A DNA stretch of 64,000 bases from contig OW568879.1 of the NCBI GenBank assembly GCA_938743325.2, forward strand, positions 310,001 to 374,000, given 5' to 3'. Source of the DNA: Pycnococcus provasolii. Its lineage: Eukaryota > Chlorophyta > Pseudoscourfieldiophyceae > Pseudoscourfieldiales > Pycnococcaceae. The translations under genes and the position numbers were made by a program. Positions 58,907 to 62,459 of this stretch are shown here, one piece after another; position 1 is the first letter of the stretch, and the number at the start of each line of letters is the position of its first letter. The notes under the pieces are model-generated. The model searched no databases. It worked only from the letters and a program-made list of their open reading frames with translations, and was not told the DNA's origin.

Positions 58907-60787
58907 TCAGAGGCATGCATTCGACGGGCATCGATTACTTGGCGACAAGAAGAGACCCAAGCCACCATCTGCTCCGCACACTGTGGAAGCATTGCTGTCA
59001 GAGCACAAAGGGTCGTCCAACACATTTCCAGTCACCAGCTCGCTGAGGTCCGCGTTGAGATCTGGTTGGTCTATTTGGTTGCCGATGCACACCGAACCTC
59101 CACTTTCAAGCTTGGATGCGCACAGCTTCTCCAGATTTGGGTTTTGAAGAACCTGTAAGGATGGAGGGAGGGATAGATTGTGATTTGTGAGTGAGAGGGA
59201 AAGGGCAGTGTACAATAGTGGTGATGGATTGTCACGTACAAGAAAAGCACCACTGGTTGTCGTAAGGCTGGGAAGGCTGATTTTCTTGAGGTTCGCATTG
59301 TCGAAGATCTGTTGTTTCGTTTGCATTGAGTTTGTAAGAAGAAGAGTGAATTTCACATGCAGTGAGTGATACGATTTGTTATGGAAGAACAAACAAATTC
59401 AAGGAATAATAAGACAAGAGAAAGTGAGACGTACGTCGACGATTCCCGCCTCCTTCAGCGCAGACAAGTCCACACTCGGGAGATTCGGGTTTTCGCGGAT
59501 CTGTTGTTGTTTCGTTTGTATTGAATGGTGGTACTGTAAGTTTTGGTGTTGTTGTTGTTGTGGTGACGATGAATCCATTTGATGATGGGTTGTCACGTAC
59601 CGTGAGGAAAGCCGCCACTGTCGTCAACTCAGAGAGCTTGACGTCGACGAGTTCACGATTGGTGACGATCTGTTGTTTTGTTTGTAGTTGGAGTTTTGTA
59701 GGAAAGAAGAGTGAGTGAGTAAATTTCACATCCAGTGAGTGATACGATTTGTTATGGAAGAACAAACAAATTCAAGGAATAATAAGACAAGAGAACAATG
59801 TGAGACGTACGTCGATCTCAAACGCCTCCATCAGCGCACACAAGTCCACCTCTGCGAGATTCGGGTTGCGTCGGATCTGTGTGTTTAGCCAGGGATGTTG
59901 TTTTGTTTGTATGGAAGTTTTGTAAGGAAGAGTGAGTGAGTAAATTTCACATGCAGTGAGTGATACGATTTGTTATGGAAGAACACACAAAAAGCAAGGA
60001 ATAATAAGACAACAGAGTGGTGTGTGAGACGTACTTTGATATCTGCCGCCTCCATCAGCGCAGACAAGTCCACGCTCGTGAGCATCGGGTTGCAGTCAAT
60101 CTGTGTGTTCAGGGAGGTGTGTGTTGTATATGTGTCGTTGAGTGGGTGAGTACATGGTGAGTTTTGTGCAATCAGTTGAAAAGTCGATTGTGCTTTTGAA
60201 AGGGATACGTACTTGGACGCTCAGGTTCGGGTTACCCACAAGACGAGGCGCGTAGATGCTCGTCAAAGAGCCTTCATTGAAAGGGTCCTCGAACTATTGT
60301 TGTTGTTATTATTTGTCGTTTGATGATACGAATGGTTGTATTGTTGTTGTGAATTTGTGATTTGGTTTGTTAGTGAGGTGCTACCAAATATTTTGTGTGT
60401 GTTCTGTCGAAGACACGCCATATTGTTGTAGAAGAACATAAGGCAGAACACCAAGAAGAAGATGAGAAAGGAAAGGAAGGAGGAGCGTACGTACCCTGAA
60501 CAAACTGTCCGGTCCTGTCTCCCAGTTGGCGAAGCGAACCTCCGCAAGATTTGGGAGTTCTCCAGATCCAAAGTCAAAATCGACACTCTGGGACGAGTTA
60601 GTCATGCACGGGAACGAGGTGATGGTGACGTTGGCAGGATCGCCGCCTAATCCTTCGATGTCCTCCGCGATCTCGTCGAGGGTGATCCTTTCTCCTGAGC
60701 CGAATGGCTCGGGGTCGCACGAGGTATACTTGGTACCAACCAGGAACCTACTTTCATCACAAGCAGTGCACTCCTCAAAAGCTTGCG

Positions 60788-60822
<35 letters not shown>

Positions 60823-61880
60823 GGTGCTGCTGCTGCTGTTGTTGTTGTTGTTGTTGTTGTTGTTGCTGCTGCTGTTGTTGTTGTTGTTGTTGTTGTGATG
60901 TCCTTGTGGGGAATGTCACGGTAGTCAATCTTGCTGAATTTGCTCGTTTCAACGTACGGTGGCTTCCCACAGTCGAGTGCCATGTGGTGTGGAATGCACT
61001 TTCCACCCTTTTGATGCGTTTTAAACGTAAGGATGCACTTTTCAGGTGTAGAATAGCCTCCTCCAAACCATCCAGCCATCGTACAAATTGCATTCTTGCG
61101 GCTGACAATCAAACATACCCACTTTTCATTGTAGTAGTAGTGATTCGTGAGAGTGAACGTCAAGCCATGCGCTTCTGACTTCGCATAGAAGTACTGAGTT
61201 TCGTATAGGGGCCTGTCGAGAAGCTGACGACGACGTCCGGGGGGAGTGTCGCACCCATTTTTCGCACCACCATGGCACCCACCACCACCAGAAGCGTGAG
61301 TGACAGTGTACCAAGTAGCTTCACTCGCATCATCAGGATGTCCCCAGAAGGGAAGACAGTGTTCTTCCTTCTTTACTTCGCAAGGACCAGAGTAGTAGTC
61401 AAACTTGGCATACTTGCGATACTTCCATGTAAACGGCGAGTACCACTTCGGCTTGGGGTAGAACGTGTCGCACGGGTAGTACTCGTCCTGCTCGTACTGC
61501 TTCCCATAGTACGGCCCAACTCCATATTTAGAGTCGTACTTGCTGTAGCCGTATCCAGAGTCGTACTTGCTGTATCCAGAGTCGTATCCAGAGTCGTATC
61601 CAGAGTCGTACTTGATGTCATTGTACTTGTTGCTGCTGTACTTCCACGTCCACGGCGCCCACCACTTGTACTTGGGATAGTAGCCTGTTTTGTATTCATC
61701 ACCGTAGTAGCCTGAGTTGTATTCATCAACGTACTTCGTCGTCTCATAAGTCGTCGTCGTCGATTTGTCTGCGCTCACACCACTCACGGCACTGAGCATT
61801 ACGACGACAGCAAGCAGAGCGACCAGAACTGATGACGCCGTGACGATCGATCGCATGTTCCTGACATTCGTCGTCATCAT
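58907..61880 (-). CDS. Secreted protein with one-repeat-per-exon leucine-rich C-terminal region (eight exons)
   Basis: Exons: 61880-60495, 60293-60213, 60100-60035, 59876-59811, 59669-59601, 59500-59435, 59308-59240, 59152-58907. All seven introns start GTACGT (60494 end: GTACGT; others alike or GTACG), end in AG and are phase 0; the joined frame is 682 residues. Exon 1 encodes a signal peptide (VLVALLAVVVMLSAVSGVSA, cleavage before DK), Tyr/Lys-rich repeats (YDSGYDSGYDSGYSKYDSGY), a Cys-containing domain (about 185-330; FTLTNHYYYNEKWVCLIV) and a Thr stalk. Exons 2-8 each encode a 22-27 residue unit such as IRRNPNLAEVDLCALMEAFEI, the N-P-N-L-x-x-V-x-L-x-x-L pattern of short leucine-rich repeats. 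Exon 8 ends with a Cys-rich tail. Probably a cell-surface or wall protein; the function is unknown. The exon model is by eye but consistent at every junction. Confidence 0.8.
59337..60030 (-). repeat. Near-identical intron repeats (three copies)
   Basis: A block of about 65-80 bp recurs inside three introns at about 59337-59400, 59724-59795 and 59948-60015. Shared words on the plus strand are GTGAGTGATACGATTTGTTA, then TGGAAGAAC and AAGGAATAATAAGACAA. Copies differ by few bases. They mark recent tandem duplication of exon-plus-intron units. Confidence 0.85.
60786..60897 (-). repeat. GTT/GCT trinucleotide tract coding poly-Thr/Ala
   Basis: GTT repeats broken by GCT triplets on the plus strand read as ACA and AGC/GCA-type codons: Thr runs with AAA interruptions on the minus strand. 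It forms the stalk of the secreted protein and keeps the frame. Confidence 0.85.
61503..61622 (-). repeat. Tandem YDSGY-coding repeats
   Basis: Repeats of TCGTA(T/C)CCAGAG (12 bp) encode YDSG units, mixed with YSKYDS units. Tyr-rich repeats like these are typical of extracellular proteins that can be oxidatively cross-linked. Confidence 0.8.
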
Positions 61881-62459
61881 CTTCGTTACTACCACTATTA
61901 TGGTATACTGTTTTATATGAGCCAATCAACAAACGCCTGCGCGCTGCCAATCTATCAGGTATGATGAGGACCAACCGACCAACGTGTGCAGTGATTGATG
62001 AGGACCAATCAATGAGCGAGCCAATCAATGAACGAAAGGAGCCAAGGTACCATACAAGCCTGCAAAAGAAGTAAGCTGCACTGACTACTCCGAACCACCA
62101 CTGGGCACCACATTCACAGCGTGACATGTTTCGCATGAGCCGGGAATGGCGAACAAATAACGGGCGGAGGGGCCGAGGGTGAAAAGGTCCTCGGCCAAAC
62201 AAACTCCCCCTTTTACCCACCCTTGGGGGATACACCGTTGCTTTGTGCATGTCTGGCCTGTCCTGTCCTTTGGGGTCCGGCTTGGGTTTTGGTTTCCCAA
62301 CGTCCGGACCATCCAACTAACCTCTCGGCACGCACGCTCCCGGTCACTCTTGAAACTTTTTGCTCTCGCAAAAATATTTTCTATTACTAATTTATTACTT
62401 AAAAAATTATATTAAATTATCTATAAATCTAACATAACATAACATACACGGGGTGTGTC
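61881..62459. other. Upstream flank of the repeat-exon gene, no gene seen
   Basis: About 580 bp. It has a TGATGAGGACCAA(C/T)C direct repeat (61959-61974 and 61998-62010), several CCAATCAA(T/C) words, and an AT-rich block (62366-62440). It probably holds the promoter of the secreted-protein gene on the minus strand. Confidence 0.45.

Follow-up and report, generated by a model that had tools for sequence, protein, structure and literature searches.

Introduction

Jawless vertebrates already provide one example of modular, hypervariable LRR repertoires, and brown algae provide another, in which the shuffled exons lie in the germline. The VLRs of jawless vertebrates, as described in excerpts of PMC3308329, consist of LRR modules with caps, form patchwork mosaics and bind through the concave face of their strands; their somatic assembly places cassettes, from a flanking set of hundreds, into an incomplete gene. 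The closest precedent among the published cases that we found is the exon-shuffled LRR-ROCO family of brown algae. According to excerpts of Teng et al., 2024 (PMC11378527), each LRR (LxxLxLxxNxL) of these proteins is encoded by one 72-bp phase-2 exon and the LRRs are followed by ROC-COR; the exons are shuffled and alternatively spliced, loci with LRR exons only occur elsewhere in the genome, four concave-face sites are positively selected, and a role in recognition is proposed. The same excerpts cite earlier work on LRR-ROCO genes in Ectocarpus (Zambounis et al., 2012). A framework that is alike between repeats, with a few hypervariable contact codons, is described in partial accounts of fungal NLRs with high internal conservation (PMC12222747) and of PRDM9 zinc fingers.

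The gene described here lies in a 64,000-nt stretch of DNA (the window), and its relatives are spread over a 32.3-Mb assembly. To the extent that the excerpts describe the brown-algal genes, both families have one repeat per exon, introns of a single phase, shuffling and repeat-exon-only loci; they differ in phase, which is 2 there and 0 in all 119 internal exons of the 27 genes modelled here, and in the Receptor-L-domain-like repeats, signal-peptide-like start and near-invariant N-terminal half of the present family. No ROC-COR domain was matched in Pfam scans of the window gene's exon 1, its constant-domain piece, its spliced repeat half or four repeat-half proteins. The host genome, unlike that of the brown algae, has RbcS genes (contig C2 has four strong matches and C14 one that is weaker), which we take to indicate a green lineage or a secondary green plastid. 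The C14 match is a RuBisCO small-subunit-like domain within a 545-aa open frame (C14:239973-240221), weaker than the C2 copies; contig C2 also carries an 18S rRNA gene with a group I intron inside (L046:60-405). VLRs are likewise modular LRR proteins with caps and a variable number of repeats, and in the present family two to nine internal exons lie between Cys-containing ends; its copies, in contrast, are complete germline genes with introns between the repeats. Fungal NLR and PRDM9 repeats are tandem within one exon. Compared with those systems, as far as they are covered above, in which the repeats lie within one gene, the present family has intron-separated one-repeat exons, copies on many chromosomes and a secreted-looking product. 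A full-text literature search, with poor coverage of subscription papers, gave no report of this gene family among the matches listed.

Results

The window gene has one repeat per internal exon

The window gene occupies positions 61880-58907 on the minus strand and comprises eight exons and seven predicted introns. Exon 1 (462 codons, 60495..61880) runs from a signal-peptide-like start, judged by eye, through Tyr/Gly/Ser/Lys/Asp repeats, a Cys-containing constant domain, a Thr/Ala-rich linker (60780..60899, coordinates hand-counted from the alignment) and an LRR cap to a first partial repeat. Six internal exons follow on the same strand, each encoding one repeat of 66-81 nt with the approximate pattern I..N..L..(V/I).L..L and a hydrophobic second-to-last residue: exon 2 (type F, 27 codons, 81 nt, 60213..60293), exon 3 (type A, 22 codons, 66 nt, 60035..60100), exon 4 (type A, 22 codons, 66 nt, 59811..59876), exon 5 (type B, 23 codons, 69 nt, 59601..59669), exon 6 (type A, 22 codons, 66 nt, 59435..59500) and exon 7 (type C, 23 codons, 69 nt, 59240..59308). 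Exon 8 (type Z, 81 residues, 58907..59152 with the stop included) encodes the last repeat and a Cys-containing C-terminal cap. The first-pass annotation of the window had proposed this eight-exon structure with its coordinates, the one-repeat exons of 22-27 codons and phase-0 introns opening with GTACG; all of these are borne out, with GTACG at seven of seven donors and phase 0 throughout the gene model. It had also called the gene secreted, and the feature that points that way is the signal-peptide-like start; no membrane anchor was seen when the protein was inspected by eye. Long single ORFs occur elsewhere in the window. One encodes an RCC1-repeat protein whose internal repeats are very similar (window:42464-43459), and a subtilase that combines EF-hand and Kringle domains with a Thr-rich linker lies at window:294-4334.

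The spliced repeat half of the window gene matched the Pfam Receptor L domain (PF01030) with an E-value of 2.2e-6 and 28.2 bits, above the curated gathering score of 21.8. The same domain was detected, at E up to 1, in all four repeat-half proteins scanned (best 4.8e-7), the first of which scored 20.8 bits, just below the cut-off. What sets the family apart from the Receptor L domain as such is that each repeat has its own exon and that the junction codons are hypervariable. Six other L-domain matches in the genome fall within three long uninterrupted frames (C2:953889-956186, C20:203121-203279 and C2:874776-875000; 1677, 845 and 700 aa). Structure searches gave no significant solved-structure relative of the repeat half, so our mapping of residues to strands rests on the Pfam match and on the general geometry of L domains. 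We infer that the Cys-containing N- and C-terminal ends of the repeat array act as caps. Exon 1 yielded only sub-threshold Pfam matches (E 0.34 and 0.4) and NCBIfam matches of E 0.061 and 0.34, and its predicted structure (mean pLDDT 31) was too poor for a fold search. A search for viral relatives gave 16 pattern matches in viral_contigs, none upheld by tblastn.

A shared block belongs to the intron behind type A exons

Introns 3, 4 and 6, those behind the three type A exons of the window gene, contain a common block (59938..60016, 59717..59795 and 59344..59422, respectively, all on the minus strand). Pairwise alignments agree with the earlier description of a near-identical block in three introns: relative to 59344-59422, ungapped identity is 97% for 59717-59795 and 75% for 59938-60016, and with 59710-59800 as reference the third copy reaches 93% with gaps. 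When matches to the block across the genome were sorted by coordinates, 38 of 39 fell at loci of the gene family; the sole other match is 54 bp long at 89% (C24:237228-237282). The block is part of the intron behind type A exons. A transposon dispersed at random genome positions, which the first-pass annotation had named as the finding that would speak against its reading, is unsupported as the source, given these 38 of 39 matches.

That exons were copied along with their introns is upheld by the recurrence of the same exon and intron types within and between genes. Tandem copying of this kind could by itself account for a single expanding gene in which the variation has no special role, and within-gene copies of the A exon with its intron and of A-B pairs, together with the nine internal exons of the C7 and C11 members, suit such local duplication. 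We nevertheless regard it as an improbable account of the whole, for it leaves unexplained at least 29 dispersed copies that in 24 of 27 genes follow one order of exon types, as well as the hypervariable junction codons and the independent segment histories presented below.

The gene belongs to a family dispersed over the genome

A genome search for the exon-1 domain, which gives a lower bound for large families, placed it at no fewer than 29 positions on 25 of 46 contigs; none of the 45 matched exon-1 pieces contains an in-frame stop. We analysed 29 loci (28 fetched plus the window gene) and obtained full gene models at 27. The two remaining exon-1 copies, on C29 and C26, showed no exon-1 donor and no repeat exons. 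The 27 models contain 146 introns, 145 of which open with GTACG, with acceptors CAG (117) and TAG (29). Each gene has between two and nine internal exons, which add up to 119. To be accepted as an internal exon, a stretch had to be free of stops, begin with I, V, M, F or L, measure a multiple of 3 and end at a GT-type donor. The exons fall into five types, which follow the order F, A, B, C, D, with some types left out or A present twice, in all members but C19, C11 and C7, and within each type lengths differ in multiples of 3, partly by construction since the finder required divisibility. The C20 member has a 2,941-nt intron with a 603-aa RVT_2 reverse-transcriptase ORF (L021:5005-6813), apparently within a type A exon, and in the C5 member an intron of 588 nt opens with GTATT; both genes may have been damaged by insertions, the one in C5 being probable.

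A strict search of 26 family gene regions below 2.5 kb (the C20 member was excluded from the 27 models for its length) found 86 repeat exons, every one on the coding strand; the reverse strand and 20 shuffled versions gave zero, so the repeat exons are not a product of chance. Of the 146 introns, 125 contain a stop in frame or have a length that is no multiple of 3, and this comparative intron/exon pattern supports splicing at the predicted junctions. All modelled introns being phase 0, repeat exons could be skipped without loss of frame, and one gene might in this way yield diverse products by alternative splicing; splice variants are known for the shuffled LRR exons of brown algae, according to excerpts of PMC11378527. 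Such splicing is a reasonable minority possibility, and it would add to the variation encoded in the DNA, not replace it.

The first-pass annotation had suggested that repeat number could vary between strains; a variable number as such is supported by the range of 2-9 internal exons among the 27 paralogs of this one assembly. Its picture of a single gene that grows by copying exons stands in part: exons and introns are indeed copied together, but at least 29 copies, of which this gene is one, are dispersed over the genome. The main process, as read from the copies, is reshuffling and diversification among them at junction codons rather than the growth of one gene.

With the C17 and C26 pairs each counted once, the 27 loci lie on 25 contigs, against 19.7 ± 1.8 expected by length (P = 0.0024; the lengths of 16 of the 46 contigs were interpolated or averaged). 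The upstream flank of the window gene (~570 bp, 61881..62450, minus strand) is 91-92% identical to the three longest-matching members; the longest shared upstream flank per member is 318-866 bp, two values being truncated where the fetched sequence stops. Downstream, shared flanks extend to about 2.0 kb; their ends differ between pairs and in some cases are set by the limit of the fetched sequence. No common end sequence of the upstream homology was seen across family members. A reverse transcriptase ORF was seen in the C20 copy alone, as an insertion, the flanks of other copies not having been scanned for elements. The copies look like ectopic duplications and not like a transposon with fixed ends. 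A transposable element as carrier of the family does not fit homology ends that vary and an element gene seen at one copy. A subtelomeric family is likewise unsupported, many copies being mid-contig, and TTAGGG-type arrays, considered as insertion sites, occur at 8 of 27 members' loci at scattered distances and without a visible pattern. Such arrays are also present inside contig C1 and at its end, and the 24-mer has 1909 forward and 1897 reverse matches in the genome.

Nine further loci were fetched; four lack repeat exons and five (L037-L041) have them but no exon-1 constant domain. These orphan exons are possibly a cassette reservoir or decaying 3' ends of genes.

Variation is concentrated at the exon junctions

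In the 19 type D exons, codons 1, 4, 6-10, 13, 15 and 17 are identical at the DNA level in every copy, and the adjoining intron sequence is invariant over 12 bases on the upstream side and 9 on the downstream side. Nine different codons occur at each of positions 2 and 21, six and seven at positions 3 and 20, and five at position 23, so that variable codons sit 3 bp from codons that never differ among the 19 copies. The layout of types B and F (72 nt) is very similar. In types A, C and F (81 nt) some inner codons vary too, type A varying mid-exon, and the contrast between a near-identical framework and hypervariable codons, clear in D, B and F (72 nt), is weaker there.

Across the 146 junctions, the residue at -2 is always hydrophobic, although this was no search criterion; the residue at +1 is so by construction. 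Positions -4, -3, -1, +2 and +3 have entropies of 3.0-3.6 bits, +4 is Asn in 120 of 146 junctions, and 139 of the 146 octapeptides made of the last four and first four residues are distinct. Alternation of buried and exposed residues before an Asn is what the strand of an L domain or LRR would be expected to show. The intron thus seems to interrupt the variable strand, and joining of the exons rebuilds a strand-like pattern.

These observations bear on the idea that the genes encode glycoproteins of the cell wall or matrix, with variation that stems from relaxed constraint and gene conversion and not from a role in recognition. The Thr-rich linker and Tyr-rich repeats would suit a matrix protein, as would the apparent lack of a membrane anchor; the linker, Thr-rich in many members, has no fixed length and is missing from some of them, and pN/pS at the variable codons is not far over 1. 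Relaxed constraint would, however, scatter changes and break frames, so the open frames and confined changes count against it: in type D the variation is limited to particular codons next to others that never change, and the hydrophobic residue at -2 is kept at every junction. We consider this reading unlikely, though not negligible.

The variable codons were first chosen by eye and then re-tested with a set fixed a priori (the first three and last five codons). At the chosen codons pN is 0.47-0.55, against 0.05-0.15 in the framework; pS is 0.26-0.52 and pN/pS 0.9-2.1, and third bases are fixed at several of them. Codons for the same residue differed more often at junctions (mean 0.151 over 47 columns) than at inner positions (0.028 over 91 columns; stratified permutation p = 0.0001 over all 138 codon columns). 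Junction silent sites are raised in five of six exon sets: D (158/679 same-residue mismatches at junctions versus 0/2331 inside), F (72 nt; 28/230 versus 0/802), B (92/458 versus 66/2409), C (66 nt; 57/163 versus 17/401) and F (81 nt; 19/131 versus 13/347). Type A is reversed (82/2108 versus 359/5972).

Selection on residues alone does not predict raised silent differences, which makes the selection step less certain than the anatomy. One way to obtain them would be targeted diversification, in which a mutator or templated copying acts on junction codons in germline or vegetative cells; a pN/pS near 1 and the five of nine further loci with repeat exons that lack the constant domain would agree with it. 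Type A behaves in the opposite way, fixed third bases at several variable codons are what selection on residues predicts, and the same pattern would arise if selection maintained old alleles next to DNA that is being homogenised; we rate targeted diversification as improbable. Adenine-specific mutagenesis, a trait of phage diversity-generating elements, was considered as many variable codons are NNC, and was rejected: codon 4 (Asn) is invariant in every type D exon (19 of 19) and every type B exon (20 of 20). A search for APOBEC_N gave no match and neither did its controls, which makes it uninformative. The junction pattern fits old variants kept by selection next to DNA homogenised in short tracts, and diversifying selection probably acts on the junction codons.

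Gene copies are mosaics

Two parts of the constant half have median pairwise distances of 0.8% and 1.9%, a near-identity that includes silent sites. Median distances are 6% and 8% in the first two introns, 7% in 300 bp of upstream flank, 23% in the cap and 27% in the last exon. Intron divergence (median) is 3-9% in eight of ten classes and 14% and 18% in the other two, far below the diversity at junction codons. Within exon 1, silent divergence is 0-0.08 on the constant side and 0.12-0.25 on the variable side, with a sharp change past the linker.

Distance matrices of eight gene segments correlate at -0.09 to 0.25, with the exception of the last exon and the downstream flank (0.65). Even the left and right variable codons of the same exon are uncorrelated (Mantel r -0.01, 0.06 and -0.02; p = 0.57, 0.21 and 0.59 for types A, B and D, respectively). 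Five 12-nt exon starts are common to different exon types, and no 12-nt exon ends are. The largely independent histories of the segments argue that the gene copies are reshuffled mosaics.

Discussion

The anatomy of the genes, their family, the location of the variation and the mosaicism were observed directly; secretion, the surface of the fold and selection as the driver are suggested by them. On balance we lean towards reading the family as secreted recognition proteins whose dispersed genes form a germline repertoire, kept diverse by recombination and probably by selection. Each gene would join a near-invariant N-terminal half to a variable half, a capped LRR solenoid of the kind seen in Receptor L domains. 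Since the intron would sit within the strand whose exposed residues vary, an exchanged exon would swap half a binding strip on each side and leave the frame intact. Recombination among copies on different chromosomes, by gene conversion or unequal exchange, would reassort the cassettes and at the same time keep the constant half and the repeat framework alike, while diversifying selection would hold the exposed junction codons different. The constant half could serve to tether or space the solenoid, with a Thr-rich stalk in many members.

A more elaborate version, a programmed system in which complete genes trade cassettes across chromosomes and junction codons are specifically mutated or templated to give a VLR-like repertoire, possibly specific to cell lineages, strikes us as a long shot. 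For the germline repertoire that we favour, the most likely role, judged from sequence, is extracellular binding of variable non-self or partner molecules. Recognition of microbes or viruses and cell-cell or mating recognition are the two candidates.

What appears to be new here is a phase-0, secreted-looking version of such a repertoire in an alga whose RbcS genes lie on a nuclear contig, with an antibody-like split into constant and variable parts. If the reading is true, it would suggest that one-repeat exons with an intron inside the binding strand are a recurring route to recognition repertoires. With about 27 complete genes and defined variable codons, the family offers a testable system.
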